Below are positions 3,999 through 15,085 of a stretch of DNA of 22,315 nucleotides, one piece after another (positions within the stretch are counted from its first letter, which is position 1; each line of letters opens with the position of its first letter). Source of the DNA: a virus; IMG/VR virus record IMGVR_UViG_3300006353_000009, positions 1 to 22,315 of that record, one strand, 5' to 3'. The notes beneath the pieces were generated by a model, which saw only the letters and a list, made by a program, of their open reading frames with translations, was not told the DNA's origin and made no database searches. The translations under genes and the position numbers were made by a program.

Positions 3999-5090
3999 CT
4001 ACGTCGTCTCTTCGCGATCGACAAACCAGTCGAACGTGAGTGCGATGCGGTACAGCTTCGTCTCGGGCTCGCGCAGGTCGATCGGCACGCCGGTCATGTG
4101 CGCGTGCGGCTCGATCGCGTCACGCACGGCAAGCGCGAGCAGCTCGACGCCGGAGTCGGTCTGGTGCCAGACATCGACCTGCACCGTGACGCGGTCGACC
4201 GGCGGCAGGTCGCTCAGGTTGTTCTCCGGGTCGCCGAAGACAACGAACCAGGTGACGTACGGCCTGCTGGCGTCCTGCGGCGCGTTGCCGTGCCGATAGA
4301 TGCGCGGCGGGTTCGTGCCGACGATCGCCTTAACCGCGACCGAAGCCTTCAGCGTCTGGAACACGGGTGGAAACATGGTGAGCCCGGGGGATGGTGGTGG
4401 GGGCGGCGGTGCTGGCGGTGGCGGTGCGGGTGGTGCTCCAGTCAGAGCAGCGGCCTCCGACAAGGTCAGGTTCTTGTAGAGGGCGATCCGGTCCACGTTC
4501 TTGCTGCCGTGGACATCGCCAGTAAAGGGGGCGATCACGCAGCGCACGAAGTTCATGACCGGCACCATGCCGATCAAGCCGGACGTCTCGCGCACCGTCC
4601 CGTCGACGATCAGCGAAACACTGCCATCCGCCGCCACGTAGAGGCCGAGCGTGTGGGTGCCAGACCCCGGAAAGAAGTTGGCGCTCTGCCAGTATTCGCT
4701 CGCGCTGTTAGCGTCGGCGTACGCAGTGCCGTCGCCAGACCAAAACACCTCCAGGGAGTCGACGCCGTCGCTGTACAGCGTGGCGGTGATCCATCCGTTG
4801 ACCGTGCTCCCGACATCGCCGGCCAGCAGCAGGAAGTACGGCAGCTCGTCGACGAACACCTCGTTCGCGTCGCCGTAGCCGAACAGGAACACCGACCCTT
4901 CACCGCTGCTGTAGTCGACCAGCGGCGGCACCAGGCGATTGCCAAGGATCTCGCCCTGGAGCTCCGGTGGAGGCGTCGGCGTCCTCCAGTTGCTGAGCCC
5001 GGTGATCGCCGGCGAAACGTCCATCGGCCGCGTCGTCGGATCGGTTCCGTCCGGGGCGGTGAAGGTGTCCAGCAGGATCGTCGTGGCCAT
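3999..5090 (-). CDS. lectin-like domain fused to DUF3168 tail-completion domain
   Basis: A 363-residue protein with two parts. Residues 1 to about 215 are a beta-rich, concanavalin-like jelly-roll candidate (HTLGLYVAADGSVSLIVDG, VDRIALYKNLTLSEAAALTG), the layout of LamG-like modules. A Pro-rich linker (PAPPPPAPPPPPPSPG) joins it to residues 239-363, a DUF3168 tail-completion domain: MFPPVFQTLKASVAVKAIVG, PYVTWFVVFG, VDRVTVQVDVWHQTD, DLREPETKLYRIALTFDWF. DUF3168 proteins usually are stand-alone at 120-140 residues and cap the tail tube. No Shine-Dalgarno precedes the ATG at 4376 that would start a stand-alone version, so the frame looks like a true fusion, placing a sugar-binding-type domain at the neck. 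Confidence 0.75.
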   Translation of the reverse strand: MATTILLDTFTAPDGTDPTTRPMDVSPAITGLSNWRTPTPPPELQGEILGNRLVPPLVDYSSGEGSVFLFGYGDANEVFVDELPYFLLLAGDVGSTVNGWITATLYSDGVDSLEVFWSGDGTAYADANSASEYWQSANFFPGSGTHTLGLYVAADGSVSLIVDGTVRETSGLIGMVPVMNFVRCVIAPFTGDVHGSKNVDRIALYKNLTLSEAAALTGAPPAPPPPAPPPPPPSPGLTMFPPVFQTLKASVAVKAIVGTNPPRIYRHGNAPQDASRPYVTWFVVFGDPENNLSDLPPVDRVTVQVDVWHQTDSGVELLALAVRDAIEPHAHMTGVPIDLREPETKLYRIALTFDWFVDREETT

Positions 5091-5103: not shown

Positions 5104-5613
5104 CTACTTCTTGTTCTGCCGGGCCAGCTTGCGCACGATGCGATTGATGTCCCGGATCAGCTCGGTCTCGATCGTCGAGATCGCCTGGGCGCCCTTCGCG
5201 ATGACGGCTGGTCGAATCCACGGCTCGGCCGGCTGCTGCGACGTGCCGTACTCCAGCCAGGCGGCGGTCTTCGCAGCGGTCACGGGTTCCTTGCCGCCAC
5301 GCGGATAGAACTGCTTGCGGCGCACGCGCACCAGGTAGCGCTCGCCGTTCGTGCCGGTTGGCGGCTTGCCGCGCGACACGATCAGGTTCTTCAGCAGAAA
5401 GCCCGTCGACTCGCGCTTGCCGGTGCTGGTCGCGTTCGCGGTGACCGCCTGCAGGTTCAGCTTCTCCTGTTCGAGGATCACGCGCGCGCCCTTGCGCAGA
5501 GCGCGCTTCACCGGGCCGCCGCGCTTGCTGACGATCTCGGGCGGGAGCTGCTGCAGCGTTTGCAGCACGCCGTCCAGGCCCGTGAGCCGCATCTCAAAGA
5601 AGCTGCTGTTCAC
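5104..5613 (-). CDS. HK97 gp10-like head-tail / tail completion protein
   Basis: A 169-residue protein of the HK97 gp10 family, a neck or tail-completion component at the head-tail junction. The N-terminal MRLTGLDGVLQTLQQLPPEI and the following RALRKGARVILEQEKLNLQ match the family's helical opening. Later come PVTAAKTAAWLEYGTSQQPA and WIRPAVIAKGAQAI, which match the conserved F/L-E-Y-G-T and P-F/W-x-R-P-A motifs. GTG 5613 overlaps the stop of methyltransferase D (GTGA). The frame extends further upstream but those codons belong to the methyltransferase. Core morphogenesis genes therefore resume directly after the cassette. Confidence 0.85.
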   Translation of the reverse strand: MNSSFFEMRLTGLDGVLQTLQQLPPEIVSKRGGPVKRALRKGARVILEQEKLNLQAVTANATSTGKRESTGFLLKNLIVSRGKPPTGTNGERYLVRVRRKQFYPRGGKEPVTAAKTAAWLEYGTSQQPAEPWIRPAVIAKGAQAISTIETELIRDINRIVRKLARQNKK

Positions 5614-6257
5614 CGCGGCCACCTGTTTCGCTGGAAGGCGAAGGTGTGGATGTCCTCGCGCCCGGCGTCCATCTCGAACGTCTGCCGCTCCAGCAGCATG
5701 AACCCATGCATGTCCATCCACATCACGAAGCCGGCGGCGGTCCAGTAGTACAGGTGCTCGCCAGGTCGGTAGTGCTTCGACTGGCGGATGTGGTCGAGGT
5801 CGTCGAACAAAGGGATGCTGATGAACACCCGCGCGTGGAGCTGCACCTCGCGCAAGTACAGGCCCGGGTCTTCGACGTGCTCGATCACATCCCAAAACGT
5901 GTAGCCGCCGAACGCGTCGAGATTCGCGGCCCACAGGTCATTGCGCTTGAGCCACTCGATCGCAACAGGGTTCACGTCGAAGCCGAACGTGTTGGGCCGC
6001 TTCTTGATGAACTCGCCGGAGCCGATCCCGATGTCGACGACCGCGCTGCGCCCGAGGTACTTGTCGACGATCGCGATGCGCCCAGCATTGATCTCGCGCG
6101 CGATCTGCTGGTCCTCGTAGCTCAGGCACTTGCCGTAGTAGTCGGCGTCGTAGTTGATCACGTGCGAGCGGTCCAGTTGGTAGGCCACGCCGTGCTCCGG
6201 GCACAGCATCAGGTCGCGATCCCAGATGGCCGGGAACGTCTTCACGAAGCGATCCAT
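5610..6257 (-). CDS. class I SAM-dependent methyltransferase D (Methyltransf_23-like)
   Basis: A 215-residue protein, last of the cassette. The N-terminus has a CPEHG segment (19-23) before the SAM-binding motif I VVDIGIGSGEF (73-83), then FGFDVNPVAIEWL (91-103) and FWDVIEHVEDPGLYLREV (121-138), a family hallmark. HYRPGEHLYYWT (162-173) is a conserved-looking active-site stretch in sugar and lipid methyltransferases of this type. ATG 6257 overlaps the preceding stop (TGATG); an in-frame GTG sits at 6260. Its stop overlaps the GTG of the gp10-like gene, which ties the cassette into the tail-gene operon. Probable role: methylating a sugar or glycan made by the neighbouring transferases. Confidence 0.75.
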   Translation of the reverse strand: MDRFVKTFPAIWDRDLMLCPEHGVAYQLDRSHVINYDADYYGKCLSYEDQQIAREINAGRIAIVDKYLGRSAVVDIGIGSGEFIKKRPNTFGFDVNPVAIEWLKRNDLWAANLDAFGGYTFWDVIEHVEDPGLYLREVQLHARVFISIPLFDDLDHIRQSKHYRPGEHLYYWTAAGFVMWMDMHGFMLLERQTFEMDAGREDIHTFAFQRNRWPR

Positions 6258-6823
6258 CACTCGGCCGTCCAGAGCGCGAAGATGTCAATGACCCTGACCT
6301 GATGCTTCGGCAGCGTGTTCACAAAGTCATAGGTCGCGTTCAGGTGCGGCGCGCCGCGATCGTCGTAGTCGTGGAACAGCACCGTGCCGCAGCGCTTCAC
6401 CAGCTCGAAGTCGGCGGCCACGATCGCGCCGTCCTTCGCGCCGTCGATGAACGCGAAGTCGAACTCCAGCGTGTTGATCAAGGCCGCCTTCTCGGCGTTG
6501 TCCGCGACCAGGCGCAGGTCGATGTTGTCGATGCCGAGCGAGCGCCAGAAGGCGTGCCGGTCGTGCTTCTCGCCGAGCTGCTCCATGCGGCCGTGCTTGA
6601 GGTCGATGGTGATCACGCGCTCGCAGTACTGCGACATTTCCGCCGCGCCGACGCCGCGGTAGGTGCCGATCTCCAGCGCCGTCCGGTACTTGCCCGTCGA
6701 CAGGATCGACTGCAGCACGCCGGCGCCGCCGCGGATGCTGAGCACGCTTCGCCGCAGCATGTGCTGGTCGTAGGTCGCGACGATCTTGTCGCGCATCGGC
6801 GTGGTGAAGGCTTGATCAGGCAT
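6257..6823 (-). CDS. class I SAM-dependent methyltransferase C (O-methyltransferase-like)
   Basis: A 188-residue protein. Motif I is ALEIGTYRGVGAAEMSQYC (residues 49-67), motif II RVITIDLKHGRM (69-80), acidic post-motif FDFAFIDGAKDG (121-132), then KRCGTVLFHDYDD (143-155). The H-D-Y-D/DG-A-K pattern is that of Methyltransf_24 and related O-methyltransferases that use a metal near the acceptor. It shares the order and wording DNAEKA...LEFDFA...DG...KRCG.VLFH with methyltransferase A, so the two look like paralogues separated by gene B. I chose ATG 6823, which overlaps the preceding stop by eight bases; the frame stays open to 6868. Confidence 0.7.
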   Translation of the reverse strand: MPDQAFTTPMRDKIVATYDQHMLRRSVLSIRGGAGVLQSILSTGKYRTALEIGTYRGVGAAEMSQYCERVITIDLKHGRMEQLGEKHDRHAFWRSLGIDNIDLRLVADNAEKAALINTLEFDFAFIDGAKDGAIVAADFELVKRCGTVLFHDYDDRGAPHLNATYDFVNTLPKHQVRVIDIFALWTAE

Positions 6824-7292
6824 TGAAGGCCACCGTAGCGAAGGACCAGGCGAGATCGCGCTCGCCATGAATCACGTTGACGAAACCGAGGTCGGACAGG
6901 AGCCGGGCGATCTGCGCCGGCGCCCACGAGTGCAGGTGCTTGCGACAGTTCTGCGGGAGCCAGTACTCCATGTCCGGGTGCGGCAGGTACAGGAACAGCA
7001 CGCCGCCGGCGCGCAGACGCGAGCGCCAGTGCTCAAGCGCGGCCACCGGGTTGACCAGGTGCTCCAGGCAGTGGCTGCTGAACACGAAGTCGAAGGCACC
7101 GTGCGGCAGCTCCATCGCCTCGCCGCCCTCCTGGATGTCGACACCGATCGCGCCAGGCAGCGGCCACTTCCCGCAACCGACGTCGAGCCCGAGGCCCTTG
7201 CAGAACTTCAGCGCGGTGGGCGCGATGAACTGGCAGGCGTTGCCGTGCTTCAGGTACTCCGGGTACAACGACCCGCGGTAGTCGAAGATCAT
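6816..7292 (-). CDS. class I SAM-dependent methyltransferase B (Methyltransf_11-like)
   Basis: A 158-residue protein. Motif I is LGLDVGCGKWPLPGAIGVDI (residues 34-53), a very typical SAM-binding loop with the acidic strand-end residue. Motif IV-like FDFVFSSHCLEHLVNP (68-83) matches the H-x-L-E-H-x-x-x-P pattern of Methyltransf_11. Post-motif RLRAGGVLFLYLPHPD (93-108) follows. It ends with a strand-rich tail. The ATG overlaps the preceding stop in an ATGA junction. It is short for the family, about 60-80 residues less than many, which suggests a minimal catalytic domain. Likely methyl transfer to a small molecule or glycan, but the acceptor cannot be read from sequence. Confidence 0.72.
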   Translation of the reverse strand: MIFDYRGSLYPEYLKHGNACQFIAPTALKFCKGLGLDVGCGKWPLPGAIGVDIQEGGEAMELPHGAFDFVFSSHCLEHLVNPVAALEHWRSRLRAGGVLFLYLPHPDMEYWLPQNCRKHLHSWAPAQIARLLSDLGFVNVIHGERDLAWSFATVAFNA

Positions 7293-7831
7293 TTCCGCCG
7301 CCACAGCGCCAGGCCCGCACCACCGAACGTCACCTCCGCGTCCGGCAGCGACATGACCAAGTCCCACACCGGCTTCTGGAACGGCCAGGCCTCGTGAAAC
7401 AGCACGCGCCCGCAACGCTTGGTCAGCGCCCAGTCGAGCGGCGTGTCGGCGGCGTGGTTGCCGTCGAGGTAGGCGAAGTCGAACTCCAGCTTCGCCACGA
7501 CGCGCGCCTTCTCCGCGTTGTCGAGGATGTCGACGCAGCGGATGTTCGTGATTCCGAGATGCCGGATCACGTCGTGCTTCAGCTCGTTGTGCGCGATGTC
7601 GACGGTGACCACCTCGTCGAAGAACTGCGAGAGCACGACCGCGGTGAGCGCGTTCCACGTGCCGATCTCGAAGCACCGCTGGCCGCGCACCTCGTTCTCG
7701 GTGAGCACCTTCTCCAGACCGTGGAACACGCTGGAGCGCCGGAACGGCGCGCCGCCGAACTGCTGGTACACGCTCATCAGACGCGGGTTCTTCAGCAAGA
7801 TCTGCAGGCGCTCGCCCACCTGCTTCTCCAT
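7289..7831 (-). CDS. class I SAM-dependent methyltransferase A
   Basis: A 180-residue protein with the Rossmann-fold methyltransferase pattern. Motif I is FEIGTWNALTAVVLSQF (residues 54-70), motif II VTVDIAHNELK (75-85), and an acidic post-motif DFAYLDGNH (118-126) followed by KRCGRVLFHEAW (138-149). The FDFAYLDGNH and H-E segments resemble Methyltransf_24/O-methyltransferase-like proteins acting on small molecules or sugars. It is clearly similar to methyltransferase C at 6257-6823. The ATG at 7831 follows the upstream stop by one base; a GTG at 7852 (GGAG upstream) would add seven residues. Substrate unknown; context suggests a sugar. Confidence 0.68.
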   Translation of the reverse strand: MEKQVGERLQILLKNPRLMSVYQQFGGAPFRRSSVFHGLEKVLTENEVRGQRCFEIGTWNALTAVVLSQFFDEVVTVDIAHNELKHDVIRHLGITNIRCVDILDNAEKARVVAKLEFDFAYLDGNHAADTPLDWALTKRCGRVLFHEAWPFQKPVWDLVMSLPDAEVTFGGAGLALWRRK

Positions 7832-7832
7832 C

Positions 7833-8522
7833 TCAGTCGTCCAGTACTGCACGCTCGCTCCCGAGGTTCTGCGAGAGCGCCCGGTCCACGATGATCGGGT
7901 GCTGCTCCATGTTGTTGATGAGCCATTCGCGCTCGCGCGCCGGCACGTGGCCGATCGGATCGGCAGGGTCGCCAGGCCGCCACTTCTCGTCGACGTTGTG
8001 CAGACCCGAGGCGAAGAAATCGAAGCCGGTGATGTACAGCGACGCCGGCCCGCACGACAGGATGTCGAGCAGCGCGGCGAAGCCGGTCGTCGGGATGTGG
8101 CCACCGAGCAGCTCGAAGCCGACCATGAAGTCGGCGATGCGCGGCACGAAGGTGTCGCAGAACCACCAGCCCGCACGCTGCCGGTAGATGTAGCGAAAGT
8201 CGACCCCGTGCATTCGTCCGTTCTGGCGGTGCCAGGCCGACTGCATGAATTGCGCGTTCGGACACTTGCAGACGCACAGGTCGACGCCGTCGCGCTTCAG
8301 CTCCTCCACGCTCTTGCGGATCGACGAACCGAAGAAGCTGTAGAAGACGTCGGTGCGCGCGCCGGCCGCCGGCGAGAGCTTGTAGTTGTTCACACGAACG
8401 ACCACGTCGTGGCTGTCGATGAACCCGGGCCGGTTGTCGAGCACGCCAGGCCCACTGCCAACGAGCGCGACGCGCCGACCTTGCAGCCGGCGCTGCACGA
8501 CCGTCCTATCGCAGAAAGCCAT
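7833..8522 (-). CDS. GT29-like sialyltransferase-type glycosyltransferase
   Basis: A 229-residue protein with the layout of GT29-type sialyltransferases. Sialylmotif L-like stretch: VALVGSGPGVLDN (residues 18-30) and GFIDSHDVVVRVNNY (33-47), matching V-G-N-S/G then I-D-x-x-D-x-V-x-R-x-N. Sialylmotif S-like stretch: PTTGFAALLDIL (144-155) then SLYITGFDFF (161-170), matching P-S/T-T-G with G-F. A late histidine region, HNVDEKW, may act as sialylmotif VS. It is shorter than eukaryotic enzymes and has no membrane anchor or signal. It overlaps the preceding gene by 17 bases. The donor may be CMP-sialic acid or a related acidic sugar such as legionaminic acid or Kdo, but this is family inference. 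Confidence 0.65.
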   Translation of the reverse strand: MAFCDRTVVQRRLQGRRVALVGSGPGVLDNRPGFIDSHDVVVRVNNYKLSPAAGARTDVFYSFFGSSIRKSVEELKRDGVDLCVCKCPNAQFMQSAWHRQNGRMHGVDFRYIYRQRAGWWFCDTFVPRIADFMVGFELLGGHIPTTGFAALLDILSCGPASLYITGFDFFASGLHNVDEKWRPGDPADPIGHVPAREREWLINNMEQHPIIVDRALSQNLGSERAVLDD

Positions 8523-9291
8523 CGATCACCGCCATCAGGTCCACCTTTCGCCAGTTGTCGACGACCGCCTTGGTCGTCTCTCGATGCAGCACCTTCTGCG
8601 GCGTGATCCGCCGCACGTACTGGTGCAGCGAGCCGAGCCCCTTGCTCGACCAGACAATCAGCGCCGGCTTGGAGAACGACTCGGCCAGCGGCACGATGAA
8701 CGAGCAGTAGCCGAGGAAGCCATCGGCCACCGACGCGACGTCGAGCAGCTGCCGCACGCTCGTCCGGTTCGCCAGATCGACGTCGATGCCGGAGAACTCG
8801 AACAGCGCCTGGCCGGCGCCCACCTGCACGATCAGCGCGCGCCCGCGCAGCGCGTCGATCGCCATCTGGATCACGCGGCAGTCGGGCAGCAGCTCGGCAC
8901 CGAAGCCGTCCGTGCGCCCCATCGGCACGCGCGGAAGCTGCACGCAGACGATCGGCCGGCCAGCGCCGCGCAACCGCTGCACCAGGTCCAAGTCGGTCGG
9001 CCGCCAGTCGAGCCGCAGGTCGACCGGCCCGCGAATGCCCGCCTGGATGCAGCAGTCCTCGAATTGCGTCGTGCCTTCCAGCCCCTTGCGCAGCGAGTAG
9101 TGCGCGACGATGTCGACGCCGGCGCGCGCGAACGGTGCCGTCTCGACCGCGCCGCCGAGCTGCGAGAAAACATCCGGCCAGGCCGTGCGGACCTTCACAC
9201 GCAGCCCGGTGTCCACGAGATGCCGCACGACGCTCTGCACGTACAGCGCATCGCCGAGCCCCATGCCGCCGCGCACGACCTTCGCTCTCAC
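8506..9291 (-). CDS. GT9/heptosyltransferase-like glycosyltransferase
   Basis: A 261-residue protein resembling ADP-heptose:LPS heptosyltransferases (GT9, GT-B fold) but shorter than the roughly 320-350 residues typical of bacterial ones. The N-terminal GGMGLGDALYVQSVVRHL (residues 8-25) is the glycine-rich acceptor-side loop. A second Rossmann half starts at PIVCVQLPRVP (113-123), continues to LIVQVGAG (153-160) and ends with SVRQLLDVASVADGFLGYCS (178-197), the donor-binding region where GT9 enzymes have a G-x-S/C motif before A-x-x-x-x-K-P. GTG 9291 overlaps the preceding stop (GTGA). The likely reaction is transfer of a sugar from a nucleotide-sugar; donor and acceptor are not identifiable. 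Confidence 0.68.
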   Translation of the reverse strand: MRAKVVRGGMGLGDALYVQSVVRHLVDTGLRVKVRTAWPDVFSQLGGAVETAPFARAGVDIVAHYSLRKGLEGTTQFEDCCIQAGIRGPVDLRLDWRPTDLDLVQRLRGAGRPIVCVQLPRVPMGRTDGFGAELLPDCRVIQMAIDALRGRALIVQVGAGQALFEFSGIDVDLANRTSVRQLLDVASVADGFLGYCSFIVPLAESFSKPALIVWSSKGLGSLHQYVRRITPQKVLHRETTKAVVDNWRKVDLMAVIDGFLR

Positions 9292-9893
9292 AGCGCCGCG
9301 CTCAGTTCGACGCGCCGAAAGCAGGTCAGCGCCGTGGCCCGGCTGCAGTTCAACACCTCCACCCCGCGCCCGGCCGCGAACTTCGCGACGTTCGCAAAGT
9401 GCCTCGGCCAGCGCTTCATCGAGGCCGCGTTTCCGAGCCCCTTGGGATGGTCGCCATGCCAGTGCACCGCGCCGCCCATCTTCTGGCAGTCGTAGCCGAG
9501 CAGCACGACGCGGCGCGCACGACCGATCACCGCCAGCGAGATCGCCGCCGTGCCCGAGTTGCCGAAGGGCGTGAACCAGGGCTGGTTGTGGAACGACTGG
9601 ACCCCCAGCGTCTTGCCGGCGATCGAGCAGGTGACGCGCTCGCCGCTGAACACGTCGTCGACGGACGGGCCGCCGTCTTTCGGGCGCTTGCCGTACTCCT
9701 TCCACCAGGCCGCGTCGTGTCCGAACAGCACCGAGGCCCACGGGCAGCGACGGTAGGTCGTGTTGGTCACGATCGTCGGATGGCCCGACGCGCGCACCGC
9801 CTCGCAGTCCTCCACCGTGAGGCTGGGACCGCTCGCGATACACACGACCGTGCATCCAATGAATCGCTCGGCCCAGTGCGGATCAGCCTTCAT
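9288..9893 (-). CDS. GPSL-motif transferase-like protein (DUF115/MptE-like)
   Basis: A 201-residue protein, first of the cassette. The N-terminal CIASGPSLTVEDCEA (residues 18-32) is a nucleotide- or sugar-nucleotide-binding loop like that of DUF115/MptE-like proteins and some glycosyltransferase relatives. Other conserved-looking segments are VTNTTYRRCPWASVLFGHD (42-60), GNSGTAAISLA (111-121), RVVLLGYDC (128-136) and HWHGDHP (144-150). The pattern of a Rossmann-like start, a central G-N/T-S-G motif and L-L-G-x-D resembles the sialyltransferase-like protein downstream, so a transfer role is plausible. The substrate is unknown. The ATG lies inside the end of the head-closure gene and its stop overlaps the next GTG. 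Confidence 0.6.
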   Translation of the reverse strand: MKADPHWAERFIGCTVVCIASGPSLTVEDCEAVRASGHPTIVTNTTYRRCPWASVLFGHDAAWWKEYGKRPKDGGPSVDDVFSGERVTCSIAGKTLGVQSFHNQPWFTPFGNSGTAAISLAVIGRARRVVLLGYDCQKMGGAVHWHGDHPKGLGNAASMKRWPRHFANVAKFAAGRGVEVLNCSRATALTCFRRVELSAAL

Positions 9894-10221
9894 TGACCCC
9901 GGACGTGCAGAGCAGCGTGATCTGCCCGATGCCGCTGTCCGGGTCCGGGATCACCGCCTCGATGTTGTAGATCGTGCCGCGATGCACGCCGCGCATGCTC
10001 GGCCGGAACCCGGAGCGGAAGCGCACGACGATGCGCGTGTTCACCTTCGACTGCACGGCCTGGGCCGCGATCAGCTCGCGCCCGGAGAGCGCGCTGATCT
10101 GCGCAGGGATGTTCACCATCACCGGCGTCCAGGCCTCGACCTGCGCGCCGTCCGAGTCCAGCTCGACGCCCAGCTCCTCGAACGTGACGCGGTGGCGCAG
10201 TCGACCAGCAGCGGGCCTCAC
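9883..10221 (-). CDS. head closure / head-tail adaptor protein
   Basis: A 112-residue protein of the phage head-tail joining family (SPP1 gp16-like, Phage_H_T_join), which seals the portal-connector channel after packaging. The signature is RLRHRVTFEELG at the start, an interrupted strand pattern including WTPVMVNIPAQISALSGREL, then IVVRFRSGFRPSMRGVHRG and YNIEAVIPDPDSG. I chose GTG 10221, which overlaps the preceding stop (GTGA); the frame is open further upstream to 10287 but those codons lie in other genes. The gene ends 11 bases inside the start of the glycosyl/methyl-transfer cassette. Confidence 0.82.
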   Translation of the reverse strand: MRPAAGRLRHRVTFEELGVELDSDGAQVEAWTPVMVNIPAQISALSGRELIAAQAVQSKVNTRIVVRFRSGFRPSMRGVHRGTIYNIEAVIPDPDSGIGQITLLCTSGVNEG

Positions 10222-10304
10222 GGCAGCATCCACAGAAGCGAGAGGGCCAGCGCCGCTGCCCTCCACGGGTTGAACCACACGGCCCACGCAAGCGCGACCA
10301 GCAT
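10218..10304 (-). CDS. 28-residue hydrophobic microprotein (single membrane segment)
   Basis: A tiny gene, 28 codons plus stop, MLVALAWAVWFNPWRAAALA then LSLLWMLP. It fills the gap between the connector and the head-closure gene exactly: its ATG overlaps the connector stop (TGATG) and its TGA overlaps the next GTG (GTGA). Two hydrophobic stretches flank FNPWR, giving a single likely membrane segment or a short hairpin. The tight coupling at both ends argues that it is translated. The function is unknown; a membrane-inserted accessory, or a coupling peptide whose translation delivers ribosomes to the next gene, are both possible. Confidence 0.55.
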   Translation of the reverse strand: MLVALAWAVWFNPWRAAALALSLLWMLP

Positions 10305-10921
10305 CACGCCATCCCCAGTCGCACGCGCAGCGGGCGCATCAAGGCCTCGGCACCATTGGGAATGCTGATCATCGCCAGCTCGGTCGAATCCTCGCGATTG
10401 CGAAACAGGTGCCCGAGGATCAGCAGGATCGCGGCGCGGATCGCCTTCGGCATCGGCTCGCCGCCGTCGCTGTCGACGCCATAGCCGGCCAGGTAGCGAA
10501 TCCGCACCAGGTTCGTCGCCGGGACCACGACCGGCCACGCGGTGGCGACCGGGCGCACGCGCGCCGGCAGGCGGTAGTTGTCGAGCACGAACGCATCGGC
10601 GTCGAGCTCGTCGTCGCTGCCTTCGCCCCACGAGATGCTCTGGATCTCGCGCACCGGGCCCATCGGCAAATCGATCGGCAGGCCGTCGAGGCTGGTGCTG
10701 AGCGGGAACTCGTCCAGCGCCACCTCGAGTACGCGGGTCGACAGGGACAGGCCGAGGAAGTTCTCGCAGTGCTCGCGGGCGGCGGCGAGCCAGCCCTCGA
10801 TCATCACGTCGTCGATCGGGTCGACGTCGCTGTCCTCGTACGGCTTCGCTTCGAGATGCGCGCGCGCCTCCTCGATCGAGATCGGCTCGGCGATCGGCGC
10901 CTGGATAACCTTCGGCGTCAT
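10304..10921 (-). CDS. head-tail connector protein (phiE125 gp8 / HK97 gp6-like)
   Basis: A 205-residue protein of the phage head-tail connector family (phiE125 gp8/gp6-like), which forms the ring bound beneath the portal. Recognisable features: the N-terminal SIEEARAHLEA; the helical segment VMIEGWLAAAREHCENFLG; a beta region (VLEVALDEFP, LPMGPVREIQSISW); VRIRYLAGYG; and the C-terminal helix PKAIRAAILLILGHLFRNRE. The frame is open upstream to 10990, but ATG 10921 (MTPKVIQAPI) overlapping the previous stop in ATGA gives the family-consistent N-terminus. Its own stop overlaps the start of a tiny hydrophobic gene. Confidence 0.88.
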   Translation of the reverse strand: MTPKVIQAPIAEPISIEEARAHLEAKPYEDSDVDPIDDVMIEGWLAAAREHCENFLGLSLSTRVLEVALDEFPLSTSLDGLPIDLPMGPVREIQSISWGEGSDDELDADAFVLDNYRLPARVRPVATAWPVVVPATNLVRIRYLAGYGVDSDGGEPMPKAIRAAILLILGHLFRNREDSTELAMISIPNGAEALMRPLRVRLGMA

Positions 10922-12525
10922 GGTGCGGCCCTGCCATTGCTCAGGCCGCGCGAGGGCGCGTCGCGCCCGCGTTTGACCGCCAGGCGCCAATGCGCGGACG
11001 GACCGGCCGGTGGTTCATCGGTGTCCTGCTTCGCGATCCAGTAGCCGCCGCCGTACGTGTAGCCATCGCCGGCCTCGGCGTGCACGCCCTTTCGATACAC
11101 GCCGCGGTCGATCGGCATGCCGGCCAGCACCAGCTCGCGCGAGATGCGCCGCTCGCCCGCGCAGAGCGTGATCGTCAGCACGCGGCCGTCGAGCGCCAAC
11201 TGCAAGTCGTCCGGCGTGAAGCCGTCGCGTCCATCCTTGGCCTCGGGCATGCGGTCGACGACGCGCTGGAGCGTCTCGCCGGCACGCCGCTCGAAGTCCA
11301 GCGCCCAGCGCGCGACCTCGGCCTCCAGCGCCGGGCGGACATCGTCGAGCGTGACGCTCGCGCCATCCTTCGCCTTCGGGATCTGCGCGACTGCATCGGC
11401 AACCGCGCGCTGCACCTCCACGCGCAGCACCTCCGGGTCAAGCGTTTTCGTGGTTTCGGGCAATTCGGCGACAGCGCTTGCAACCGCGGCGCGGATGACG
11501 TCGGGGTCCGCATCCTTGCCGTCGCGTGGCACCGGCAGCGCAGCGACGGCGCGCTCGACCTCGGCGCGCAGGAGAGCCGGATCGGCATCCTTCCCGTTCT
11601 GCGGCGGCGGCACCAGGGCAACCCGGCGCGCGACTTCGACGTCGACCAGGCCGGCGAGCTGCGAGCGCATCGTTTCGATCTCCAGGCGCATCGCCGCGTG
11701 CATCTGGTCCGAGTGGTGGACCAGCGCGGCCTGCGCGCGCTCGACCAGGCCGGGCAGGATTTCGTCGACGCGCTGGCGAATCAGCTCGGGATCAAAGTCC
11801 TTACCCGGGTCGCCCTTCGCCGGGGGCGGCAGTGCAGCGACCGCCGTCGCGGCAGCGGCAGCGATCTGGCCCGACAGCTCGACGAGGTCGACCGAGCGGC
11901 CGGGTTCACCGTCCTTCGCCTTGGGCAGCGCGGCCACCGCATCGGCCACCAGGCGACGAATCAGCTCCGGGTCGGCATCCTTGCCCGGCTGCGGCGCCGG
12001 AAGCGCGCTGACGGCCTTTGTGACCGCCTGTGGCACCGCTTCTGCGACCGCCGACTCGACGAGCGCGGCGATCTGCGCCGGGTCCGCGTCTTTGCCAGGC
12101 GCGCCGTCCTTCGGCGCCGGGATCTGGTCGAGCGCCGCCGTCACCTTCGCGAGCACGACCTCGGCGATGGCGTCGGCGTCGGCATCCTTCCCGTTTTCTG
12201 CCCTGGGAAGGCCCGCCACGGCCCGCGTGACAGCTTCTTCGAGCACGGCAGGGTCGTAGTCCCGACCGTCCCTCGGGACCGGCAGAGCGCCCACAGCCTT
12301 CGCCGCCGCCGCCGAGATTTCGCCGGCCAGCGCGACCAGGTCGACCGACTCGCCGTCCTTCGGCTTCGGCAAGGCCGCGAGCGCCTCGGCGACCATGCGG
12401 CGCACGTTCTCGGGCTGGCGCTGATCCATCTCGTCCAGCCGTGCCACGAGCGGGCGCAAAGCGCGCGCGACGTGGCCCTTCACTGACGCGATCAATGCAT
12501 CCGCAATGGCGTTGAGGTCAGTCAT
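10918..12525 (-). CDS. long repeat fibre-like protein with a C-terminal carbohydrate-binding-like domain
   Basis: A 535-residue protein. After a helical start (MTDLNAIADALIASVKGHV) it has about twelve units of roughly 30-35 residues. Each unit holds a helix of Val/Ala character followed by a P-x-P/A-x-DGKDADP linker (PVPRDGKDADPDVIR, PAPKDGAPGKDADPAQI, PAPQPGKDADPELI). The C-terminal 80 residues (VYRKGVHAEAGDGYTYGGGYWIAKQDT and SAHWRLAVKRGRD) match the G-x-x-Y-x-x-G-D-x-V-x-Y-x-G-x-x-W pattern of small carbohydrate-binding modules on phage fibres. The layout suggests a rod-like trimeric fibre with a sugar-binding tip. Its stop overlaps the connector start (ATGA), so a fibre sits inside the head-tail joining operon. 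Confidence 0.75.
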   Translation of the reverse strand: MTDLNAIADALIASVKGHVARALRPLVARLDEMDQRQPENVRRMVAEALAALPKPKDGESVDLVALAGEISAAAAKAVGALPVPRDGRDYDPAVLEEAVTRAVAGLPRAENGKDADADAIAEVVLAKVTAALDQIPAPKDGAPGKDADPAQIAALVESAVAEAVPQAVTKAVSALPAPQPGKDADPELIRRLVADAVAALPKAKDGEPGRSVDLVELSGQIAAAAATAVAALPPPAKGDPGKDFDPELIRQRVDEILPGLVERAQAALVHHSDQMHAAMRLEIETMRSQLAGLVDVEVARRVALVPPPQNGKDADPALLRAEVERAVAALPVPRDGKDADPDVIRAAVASAVAELPETTKTLDPEVLRVEVQRAVADAVAQIPKAKDGASVTLDDVRPALEAEVARWALDFERRAGETLQRVVDRMPEAKDGRDGFTPDDLQLALDGRVLTITLCAGERRISRELVLAGMPIDRGVYRKGVHAEAGDGYTYGGGYWIAKQDTDEPPAGPSAHWRLAVKRGRDAPSRGLSNGRAAP

Positions 12526-12753: not shown

Positions 12754-13866
12754 TCAAGGCCCCCACGGGTCGCTGGGCGCTCCTGAGCCGGTCACGTTGA
12801 CGTCGTTGACGGCGCGAATGTTGGCGTCGACCTTGTTCGGGACCGTGAAGGCCAGCTGGTCGGTCTTGGTCTTGATGGCCGCGGTGTCGGCCTTCGCAGC
12901 GGCAACATCGGCCGACACCGAGGCACCGGCCGGCGTCCCGAGCTTCGCGTCGACCGCGGCGACCGCAGTGCCGAGCGTGGACACGTCGCCGCTCGACGCA
13001 GGCGAGGCCGGCAGGTTGTCGGTCTTCGCCTTGATCGCCGCGACCTCGGTGTCGATGTAGCCGCCCATCGTCGCGAGCGTTGCGTCGATCGTGCTGAACG
13101 CGCTCGCGATGTCGGAGGCATCCGCCGGATCGCTCGGCAGGTTGTCGGTCTTCGCTTTCACCGCGGCAATCGAGGCGTTGTCGGGAGCGGTGTAGCTACC
13201 GCCCGCGAGCCGCGAACTGATCGCCGCATCGATCCGGTCGACGAGCAGCTTGCCGATCGAGCCGACCGTGGTCAGCGCCGACGTGAGCGCACCCCAGATC
13301 GACGCGGCGAGGGTTGTGCGTTCGCCACTGGTCAGCGCCATTGCATCGCCGGCCTGCGCTGCGGTCTTCGCCGAGTCATAGGCCGACGTCAGCGCGACCG
13401 GCGCAGTGACCGATGCGACCGCACCGCCTGCAAAGGTCGAGCGACTGCTGATCGCTGCATCGAGGTTGTCGAGATTGCCGGCGCGCGTCGAGGTCACGCG
13501 CGCGAGTAGCGTCGTCGTGCCGCTCGTGTCTGCGCCGGCGTAGGTCGAGCGACTCGAAATGTCCGCGTCCAGATGCGCCGCGCGAGCCACCGTGTAGTCG
13601 GCCTCGGTGTGGATCGCGATCGGCGCAAGGGTCACACCGCTCGTGGTGGTGGTGGGATCAAGCACCACGATCTCGCCATCCATCTCGGTCGCGGTCAGCG
13701 TGACGTAGTACCAGCCGCTGCCGCTCTCGACGACTGCGTTGGTGGTCGGCGCCGGGTTCGCGCCGTCCTTCGCGGTCTTCGTCGTGATGGTGAGGGCAGG
13801 AACACCGGCGTTGCTGGAGTCGACCGCTTTGAAAGGCACTTTCGCGGCGACGTTGCGCTTGTACAT
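12754..13866 (-). CDS. repeat-containing fibre-like structural protein
   Basis: A 370-residue protein starting MYKRNVAAKVPFKAVDSSNA. The first ~100 residues form a beta domain (VPALTITTKTAKDG, YYVTLTATEMDGEIVVL) of the type that heads many phage fibre-like proteins. A repeat region follows: DADISSRST, DAAISSRST and DAAISSRLAG, then AAIKAKTDNLP twice and AAIKTKTDQL. These heptad-like repeats suggest a trimeric coiled coil. I chose ATG 13866 because AAAGGGGG lies upstream at good spacing; an in-frame ATG at 14001 would add 45 residues but has no clear ribosome-binding site. The gene ends directly before the GTG of the next one. Virion-fibre role is an inference. Confidence 0.7.
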   Translation of the reverse strand: MYKRNVAAKVPFKAVDSSNAGVPALTITTKTAKDGANPAPTTNAVVESGSGWYYVTLTATEMDGEIVVLDPTTTTSGVTLAPIAIHTEADYTVARAAHLDADISSRSTYAGADTSGTTTLLARVTSTRAGNLDNLDAAISSRSTFAGGAVASVTAPVALTSAYDSAKTAAQAGDAMALTSGERTTLAASIWGALTSALTTVGSIGKLLVDRIDAAISSRLAGGSYTAPDNASIAAVKAKTDNLPSDPADASDIASAFSTIDATLATMGGYIDTEVAAIKAKTDNLPASPASSGDVSTLGTAVAAVDAKLGTPAGASVSADVAAAKADTAAIKTKTDQLAFTVPNKVDANIRAVNDVNVTGSGAPSDPWGP

Positions 13867-14017
13867 CGGGCTACCCCCTTTGAGGCTGATCGAGACGATC
13901 GCCTGCTGGAACGTCGAGTACAGCGTGCGCGCCGGCGCCTGCGTCGCGCGTGCAAAGACGACGGCCTGAGTGCCGGCAAGGTATGAAGCAAAGGAGGCCA
14001 TGCACTACGCGCCCCGC

Positions 14018-15085
14018 TCAGATGAGAGGCGCCGAGGTCGACACCCAGGGGAGCCACACGTGCCCGTACTTCACGTAGTTAAACGGCGTCGTGTTCGGGA
14101 TCGTGCTGCCCTGCGCGGGCGCACCCGAGGCCCACAGCAAATCGGCCACGCGCCCCCTTAGGTCGGTGTTCGTGTAGTCCATGACCCAAATCGGAAAGCC
14201 GCTGTAGGTCGTGTCGCTCGCATTGGCCGTCGTGTTCAGAGTGACGGTGATGCTGTTGGCTGCCGCACCGGCATTCGAGAGTGTGGGGGCCGGGCATGCA
14301 AGAACCGGCGCGCCGGAGCCGCTGTAGTTTCGCCCTTTGACAGTGACATTCGTATTGCCGCACAAGTTGTTGGCACTGCTCACCGCCGAGGTGAAGTTGC
14401 CCTGGCTACCGCTTGAGTTAACGACGCCGCCGCCACCGAAGAAGCTGATCGTCGAGTAGTTGTCGGCGCTGTGCGCGCCCTGCAGTTTCGTCACGCCGAG
14501 GATCGCGTACGCGCCGTTGTTCGTGTCGAAGGTCTCGATCCACCAGAAGTCACCGCGTGTGGACAGGTGTAGGTTCTCGCGGTGCGTCTTCGTGATGCTG
14601 TTGTCGTTGAACGTCGCGCCCGAGTAAGACCATTCGTCCGTCAGCGTCGGGCGCGCGGTCGTCGAGCCGTTCGTGCTCAGCGTCTTGCCGAGGATGAGGT
14701 CGCACTTGCCGTTCGTCGCGTTGCCGAAATCGACAATCAGGTAATACGAGCCGAGCGCTGATGGCGATTGCAGCAAGGCCCACGAGCGGCCGGTGCCGGC
14801 GGTCGTGTTCGCACCGAAGACCCAGTCGTTTGCGGTGAACGCGCCGCTGCCGGTCAGGTGCAGGCGGTCGGTCGTGTCGGCGGTCAGGTTGCCGGCGGTG
14901 CCATCGGTCGAGCCGCAGGTGCGAACGACTGACCAGTTGCCGGTGTTGCTCGCGAAGCCGAGCCCGGTATTGCCAACCAGCGAGGCGAGCAGATACCACA
15001 GCTCCCACTTGCTCTGCGTCGCCGCGTCGGCGGCGCTCGCTACCGCGCGGTTGACATCGCACGCCCAGGTCAGTTCGGTCGCCAT
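14018..15085 (-). CDS. beta-rich virion-type protein of unknown family
   Basis: A 355-residue protein with no family I can name. It is rich in Ser, Thr, Asn, Gly and aromatic residues and poor in Lys and Glu, as is usual for extracellular or virion beta structures. The N-terminal segment WACDVNRAVASAADAATQSK WELWY looks helical; then come many short strand-like stretches (LIVDFGNATNGKCDLILG, GDFWWIETFDTNNGAYAIL), and a C-terminal HVWLPWVST. Its Thr/Asn/Gly-rich codon use is distinct from the Ala/Arg-rich neighbours, hinting at an imported module. The position in a block of fibre-like genes suggests a decoration, head-fibre or surface protein. Function not assignable from sequence. Confidence 0.65.
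   Translation of the reverse strand: MATELTWACDVNRAVASAADAATQSKWELWYLLASLVGNTGLGFASNTGNWSVVRTCGSTDGTAGNLTADTTDRLHLTGSGAFTANDWVFGANTTAGTGRSWALLQSPSALGSYYLIVDFGNATNGKCDLILGKTLSTNGSTTARPTLTDEWSYSGATFNDNSITKTHRENLHLSTRGDFWWIETFDTNNGAYAILGVTKLQGAHSADNYSTISFFGGGGVVNSSGSQGNFTSAVSSANNLCGNTNVTVKGRNYSGSGAPVLACPAPTLSNAGAAANSITVTLNTTANASDTTYSGFPIWVMDYTNTDLRGRVADLLWASGAPAQGSTIPNTTPFNYVKYGHVWLPWVSTSAPLI

Follow-up and report, generated by a model that had tools for sequence, protein, structure and literature searches.

Architecture of the late operon

We analyzed a window of 22,315 bases, which is the whole stretch of DNA under study (IMG/VR virus record IMGVR_UViG_3300006353_000009, positions 1 to 22,315). 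Seven minus-strand open reading frames (ORFs) occupy positions 5610-9893, between the head-closure gene HC1 and a gene encoding an HK97 gp10-like protein, and form a cassette of putative glycosyltransferase and methyltransferase genes. A preliminary description of this DNA had placed a seven-gene set between these two genes, leaving the strand unstated; the set does fill the interval, and the operon reads on the minus strand, with the cassette running from 9893 down to 5610. The cassette genes were numbered G1 to G7, G1 being nearest HC1, and are listed below with their two borders.

9883..10221, minus strand: HC1, head-closure protein, upstream border of the cassette (Phage_HCP Pfam E value 2.7e-21, phrog_25 E value 1.3e-24; start at 10221 inferred)
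9288..9893, minus strand: G1, 201 residues, GT42/MptE-like putative glycosyltransferase (phrog_4603, E value 5e-49)
8506..9291, minus strand: G2, 261 residues, GT9/TibC-like (GT-B) putative heptosyltransferase (predicted fold)
7833..8522, minus strand: G3, 229 residues, GT29-like glycosyltransferase (PF00777 family matches and fold)
7289..7831, minus strand: G4, 180 residues, class I (O-)methyltransferase (family profile against solved O-methyltransferases, E values 0.002-0.02)
6816..7292, minus strand: G5, 158 residues, class I methyltransferase (Methyltransf_23 E value 2e-10, over cut-off)
6257..6823, minus strand: G6, 188 residues, class I methyltransferase, paralogue of G4 (Methyltransf_24 E value 5.7e-8, over cut-off)
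5610..6257, minus strand: G7, 215 residues, class I methyltransferase (Methyltransf_23 E value 3.6e-9, over cut-off; phrog_6564 E value 4e-47)
5104..5613, minus strand: HK97 gp10-like/Neck1 protein, downstream border of the cassette (phrog_5 E value 2.5e-14)

The late genes follow the order TerL, capsid fused to protease, portal, several virion-type genes, gp6-like connector, HC1, the seven-gene cassette, gp10-like, tail terminator, major tail protein, chaperones and tape measure; TerL was named by its position, and the connector by its position and relatives. From HC1 to the gp10-like gene, the junctions measure -11, -4, -17, +1, -4, -8, -1 and -4 nucleotides (nt), negative values being overlaps. 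The tight overlaps that had been described thus hold at every junction, both outer borders included (1-17 nt), except between G3 and G4, which are separated by a 1-nt gap, and the overlapping borders confirm that the cassette is built into the late operon. Its GC content and its GC content at third codon positions (GC3) are the same as those of the neighboring genes, which lends no support to a recently imported island. That the two border genes are normally close neighbors can be seen in RHph_X2_26 and SOVA965, which share the capsid type and lack the cassette; in both the site is empty, with nothing between HC1, which joins head and tail, and the tail gene that follows. No 19-residue segment of any cassette protein exceeded a mean hydropathy of 1.55, which is too low for a membrane helix, in agreement with the cytoplasmic action that the preliminary description had leaned toward.

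Glycosyltransferase-like proteins

The product of G1, previously called a transferase-like protein with a GPSL motif, resolves to a GT42/MptE-like enzyme. In addition to its phrog_4603 match, its family profile matched the GT42 sialyltransferase CstII (E value 0.007), and 18 of 28 family members had an MptE-like match at an E value of 0.1 or less. G1 alone scored 11.3 bits against PF01973, for which the cut-off is 34.6, and we named it GT42/MptE-like rather than a member because the family profile score was under the cut-off. Searches with tblastn gave matches of 43% to the phages D3 and PAJU2 (the D3 orf7 region and PAJU2 gp10) and 35% to phage P1 (PmgO). Residues N44, D60, D135 and H144 are conserved, and among the three glycosyltransferase-like proteins G1 varies most (mean column identity 35%).

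Sequence searches of solved structures with profiles of G2 and G3 returned only chance matches, and assignment of these two proteins therefore required comparison of predicted folds. An AlphaFold2 (AF2) model of G2 had a predicted local distance difference test (pLDDT) score of 95 and a predicted template modeling (pTM) score of 0.92, and in Foldseek its best match was TibC (E value 1.3e-8), followed by WaaF (E value 1.2e-7) and then WaaC. The fold thus agrees with the GT9-like glycosyltransferase reported in the preliminary description. The GT9 profile PF01075 did not match G2 and matched one of 26 family members (E value 0.099); because this profile was not over its cut-off, we call G2 GT9-like by fold only. 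The model and the alignment together show a GT-B fold of the WaaC/TibC type with the aspartate of an N-terminal G-x-G-D; this residue, D14, is invariant in 86 sequences and is presumably the WaaC-type catalytic base. G2 also has a weak match (E value 1.3e-5) to PHROG 6804, the family of the middle gene of the PAJU2 set described below, and is the counterpart of PAJU2 gp11 and D3 orf12.

The AF2 model of G3 (pLDDT 94) has a sialyltransferase fold by Foldseek, the top matches (E values 9e-6 to 5e-5) including ST3Gal1 (8.7e-6), CstII (1.6e-5) and ST8SiaIII. By itself G3 matched the GT29 profile PF00777 weakly (E value 0.0087; 15.9 bits against a cut-off of 23), and 24 of 27 members of its family matched at an E value of 0.1 or less, the best at 1.2e-8. 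These family matches and the likeness of the fold to ST3Gal1 and CstII uphold the earlier GT29-like call. We take the GT29 motifs to be P-[ST]-T-G in motif S, the histidine of motif III, and H-x4-E in motif VS; the corresponding G3 residues T146-G147, H175, H192 and E197 are invariant in 82 sequences. Both the H192-x4-E197 arrangement and the 17-residue spacing from H175 to H192 presumably agree with ST3Gal1.

Methyltransferases

All four class I methyltransferases that had been proposed were supported. Profiles for class I enzymes that use S-adenosylmethionine matched G5, G6 and G7 over their cut-offs, and G4 was assigned through its family profile alone; G4 by itself matched Methyltransf_24 weakly (13.4 bits, cut-off 26.3), and E55 and G57 of its ExGT motif are invariant. 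Homologues of G7 include D3 orf13 and PAJU2 gp12, and tblastn matches to it were found in 31 phage records. The structure and profile comparisons called for in the preliminary description returned glycosyltransferase folds for the G2 and G3 models and methyltransferase profiles for G4 to G7.

Relatives in environmental contigs

Scans of IMG/VR for relatives of G2, G3 or G7, together with other loci that were fetched, yielded 109 distinct contigs, which were annotated with profiles made from the window's own proteins; these contigs are mutually related, so that counts among them are not independent. Cassettes bearing G3 were present in 84 distinct contigs, the window included, and G2 lay directly before G3 in 78 of them. 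The usual order is G1-G2-G3, then one to three methyltransferase genes, then G7. A cassette had anywhere from zero to four recognized methyltransferases, a spread partly due to truncated contigs. Nine extra genes lie in or beside the cassettes of relatives; one of them was recognized as an FkbM-type methyltransferase, and none as a flippase, acyltransferase or membrane protein. Residues invariant within a family were found across 46-90 sequences per family, and across just five for G6. Since relatives of every gene recur across many contigs, in almost the same arrangement and with invariant residues, chance does not explain the set.

A survey for the same insertion site, suggested in the preliminary description, found the cassette recurring inside the structural block. 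It lay between structural genes in all 48 of the G3 contigs with head or tail genes recognized on both sides; a further 29 had structural genes on one side only and 7 had none recognized. The exact insertion point varied, falling between capsid and connector (MCP and Ad1), connector and HC1, HC1 and gp10, or elsewhere. In five contigs without recognized markers, the PHROG matches of the flanks were to terminase, portal, head-tail adaptor or tail genes, some of them head genes not of the HK97 type.

Among 50,697 phage records, a DNA-level search with the cassette gave no match, and protein searches gave none for G2 and one distant match for G3. Because G2 and G3 are nearly absent from these records, only uncultivated phages and prophages are known to carry the seven-gene form.

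Two further loci carry sets of a related kind. In Tetraselmis viridis virus S20 (5274-8131), Caudoviricetes head genes are followed by two G1-type genes, a glycosyltransferase gene and a methyltransferase gene, a different version of the cassette arrangement; the record is said to infect a green alga, and the true host is probably a bacterium. In Caulobacter phage CcrColossus (5959-10512), a G1-type gene labeled sialyltransferase-like directly follows a large tail gene and is itself followed by genes for a nucleotide-sugar transferase and a family 9 glycosyltransferase, placing a related set beside the tail genes of a giant phage.

Sugar donors and host

Relatives of G3 were found in three metagenome-assembled genomes (MAGs) of Betaproteobacteria. 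The 88-kb contig that holds one of these relatives begins and ends with ordinary bacterial genes, so that this relative is part of an integrated prophage. By extrapolation from these relatives, the host of the window is probably also a betaproteobacterium. Each of the three MAGs encodes one KdsB and one HldD, over cut-off; NeuB was found in none of them, which is suggestive given that MAGs can be incomplete. No cytidine monophosphate (CMP)-sugar synthetase (PF02348) was found in 23 virus records, many of which are fragments. With KdsB and HldD in the MAGs and no such synthetase in the phage records, the donors on hand are CMP-Kdo (Kdo, 3-deoxy-D-manno-octulosonic acid) and ADP-heptose, and we predict from sequence that these host compounds, not sialic acid, are used. 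Sialic acid is disfavored as a donor by MAGs that have KdsB and lack NeuB, and transfer of sialic acid by G3 from CMP-N-acetylneuraminic acid is accordingly predicted to be doubtful.

Possible functions of the cassette

The reading that we tentatively prefer, and to which we give nearly an even chance, is that a late cytoplasmic module builds a short glycan on a virion protein and caps it with methyl groups. We infer the late timing from the position in the operon; the order of action, the donors, the acceptor and the biological role are predictions too. In the cytoplasm, G1, G2 and G3 would attach two or three sugars one after another, taking nucleotide sugars from the Gram-negative host's own supply; the donor for G1 and G3 would most likely be CMP-Kdo or another CMP-ulosonate, and that for G2 ADP-heptose. 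G4 to G7 would then methylate the added sugars, with a capping set that differs between phages. The acceptor would most likely be an abundant virion protein, such as the capsid or tail tube, modified while it is being made, which would account for translation of the cassette within the head-tail operon, and the biological role would be shielding or altered adsorption. A virion protein is favored because the placement in the structural block is tight and repeated, and because both the best match of G2 and the MptE-like family, to which the Maf-type flagellin transferases belong, include protein glycosyltransferases. In PAJU2, moreover, the depositors gave the label "structural protein" to three products of this region, namely the major tail protein (ORF015), the G1 homologue and the capsid. 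The reading also draws on the three-gene core at the same junction in PAJU2 and the empty site in RHph_X2_26 and SOVA965, on the membrane-segment, GC and donor results given above, and on the mycobacteriophage precedent for glycosylated capsid and tail proteins. A head-fiber-like protein, fib, was considered as a general acceptor and rejected, as D3, phage Psp6 and several contigs have the module and no recognized fib.

Several observations weigh against glycosylation of a virion protein. The 48 structurally flanked contigs are related to each other. Placement within the operon speaks to when the genes are expressed and not to what they modify. Nor do the enzyme classes favor a protein acceptor: lipopolysaccharide (LPS) or lipooligosaccharide (LOS) is the classical target of GT9, GT42 and Kdo enzymes, and the TM-scores of G2 are similar for TibC and for WaaC/WaaF (0.57-0.59). 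The method behind the PAJU2 label is unstated, and the label could mean that G1 is itself a virion part.

The main rival, and a serious one because the same enzyme classes act on LPS, is late remodeling of the host LPS inner core or another surface glycan with Kdo-like or heptose-like sugars and methyl groups, which would keep released progeny from binding to debris or infected cells. GT9 and GT42 proteins typically act in LPS/LOS core synthesis and do so without membrane segments, WaaF and WaaC are among the best fold matches of G2, and the predicted donors are those of inner-core LPS. Against this, the cassette is embedded among the structural genes, at one or another of several points, and does not form a moron of its own, the extra genes of relatives' cassettes include no recognized component of the membrane or acylation kind noted above, and D3, of a related lineage, has separate serotype-converting genes for that job (PMC7326022). 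On this evidence we regard remodeling of host LPS as possible, with the chances leaning clearly toward its being wrong.

The PAJU2 label, the location of G1 in D3 and Psp6, where it immediately follows the capsid gene region, and the variability of G1 would also suit an arrangement in which some members, chiefly G1, sit in the virion as structural or binding proteins, their enzyme fold partly exapted. G1 nevertheless keeps N44, D60, D135 and H144, the motifs of its companion enzymes are intact, and P1 pmgO is dispensable (PMC10695390), which makes such a role improbable. That the enzymes act not on a glycoconjugate but on phage DNA, tRNA or a small molecule appears very improbable: phage glycosyltransferases are known to hypermodify DNA (cited in PMC12619734) and some of the methyltransferases have weak profile matches to tRNA methyltransferases, but no base-hydroxylation or replication gene was recognized in the neighborhood of the cassette, and three glycosyltransferase types in a row with variable methyltransferases better suit an oligosaccharide.

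A narrower form of the virion-glycan proposal, which we consider unlikely as it stands, is that virion proteins of phages of LPS-bearing bacteria carry a methyl-capped Kdo/heptose glycan made from the host's inner-core LPS donors, with a GT29-type enzyme using Kdo in place of sialic acid and particle sugars that resemble the host surface. If the preferred virion-glycan reading is right, virion glycosylation would be widespread in Gram-negative phages and open to test in the cultured phages PAJU2, D3 and P1, where gene deletion is routine. It would explain several late genes now annotated as conserved hypothetical or putative morphogenetic, would provide a natural non-animal GT29-like enzyme for studying the choice between Kdo and sialic acid as donor, and would bear on phage adsorption and immune recognition.

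Other genes of the window

Several other minus-strand genes of the late operon have unusual features. Two Ser/Thr-rich proteins (14018-15085 and 12754-14001), probably located on the virion surface, belong to no recognized family; the former was found in no related contig and the latter in a few, and both are possible glycan acceptors. Between the portal and the connector lies a protein of 535 residues (10918-12525) with repeated segments of the PKDGKDADP type and a C-terminal domain that looks carbohydrate-binding; it has relatives in 48 of the 109 contigs, and its PHROG label of portal is probably wrong. A very hydrophobic ORF of 28 residues (10218-10304; MLVALAWAVWFNPWRAAALALSLLWMLP), which overlaps the stop of the connector gene with its start and the start of HC1 with its own stop, had no counterpart at the same place in 20 related contigs. 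The tail terminator gene (3999-5090) encodes an extra N-terminal stretch of about 235 residues with a lectin-like look and a proline-rich linker, its Pfam and PHROG tail-terminator matches being confined to the C-terminal part.

Comparison with known systems

Among the closest known arrangements is that of the Pseudomonas phage PAJU2 and other members of Detrevirus. In PAJU2 the order is HC1, a GT42-like gene, a GT9-like gene, a methyltransferase gene, gp13 and the tail terminator; gp10, gp11 and gp12 are homologous to G1, G2 and G7 and occupy the same junction between HC1 and the gp10-like gene in the same order. This trio differs from the cassette in lacking a GT29-like gene and in having one methyltransferase only, of phrog_6564, and its function is likewise predicted. 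Close relatives of the PHROG 6804 middle gene are annotated as GT9 in other records. The trio is also present in D3 and Psp6, where it is split or lies farther upstream, as well as in Klebsiella phage Eowyn and Enterobacter phage Mulvp2. Sequences of these genes in D3, PAJU2 and their relatives have been publicly available for years, some of them labeled sialyltransferase, GT9 or methyltransferase. The preliminary view of an undescribed system must therefore be narrowed, as the three-gene core has long been in public sequences; it stands insofar as we found no functional study of that core in the open-access literature, where we also found no virion proteome paper for D3 or PAJU2.

The pmgO-pmgP-ppp-pmgQ genes of P1 resemble the cassette in that PmgO is a G1 homologue (35%), PmgP is weakly MptE-like and PmgQ is a PHROG glycosyltransferase. 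They are a different set, which includes a phosphatase and has no recognized homologue of G2, G3 or G7. Each of the four is dispensable for plaques in the laboratory (PMC10695390), and the P1 structure paper does not mention PmgO, PmgP or PmgQ (PMC9024508).

Serotype-conversion modules of temperate phages are likewise phage genes that alter surface glycans, but the cassette lies in the head-tail block and has no membrane component among its proteins, and thus does not belong with gtr-like modules; in D3 the serotype-converting genes are a separate set (PMC7326022). TibC-type protein heptosyltransferases provide the best structural match of G2, at 13% identity, although G2 is much shorter (261 versus about 380 residues) and has a different genetic setting.

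Mycobacteriophages share with the cassette the use of phage-encoded glycosyltransferases, which in their case place glycans on the capsid and tail tube (Freeman et al. 2023, cited in PMC11652166 and PMC12619734). They differ in their actinobacterial hosts and in that the glycan has been demonstrated there and is predicted here, and these two papers describe no GT29/GT42/GT9 set with several methyltransferases. Nor did the open-access literature, outside which many subscription journals lie, contain a description of a module combining GT42-like, GT9-like and GT29-like enzymes with methyltransferases. Phage-encoded glycosylation is already known, and this set would be a new form of it.

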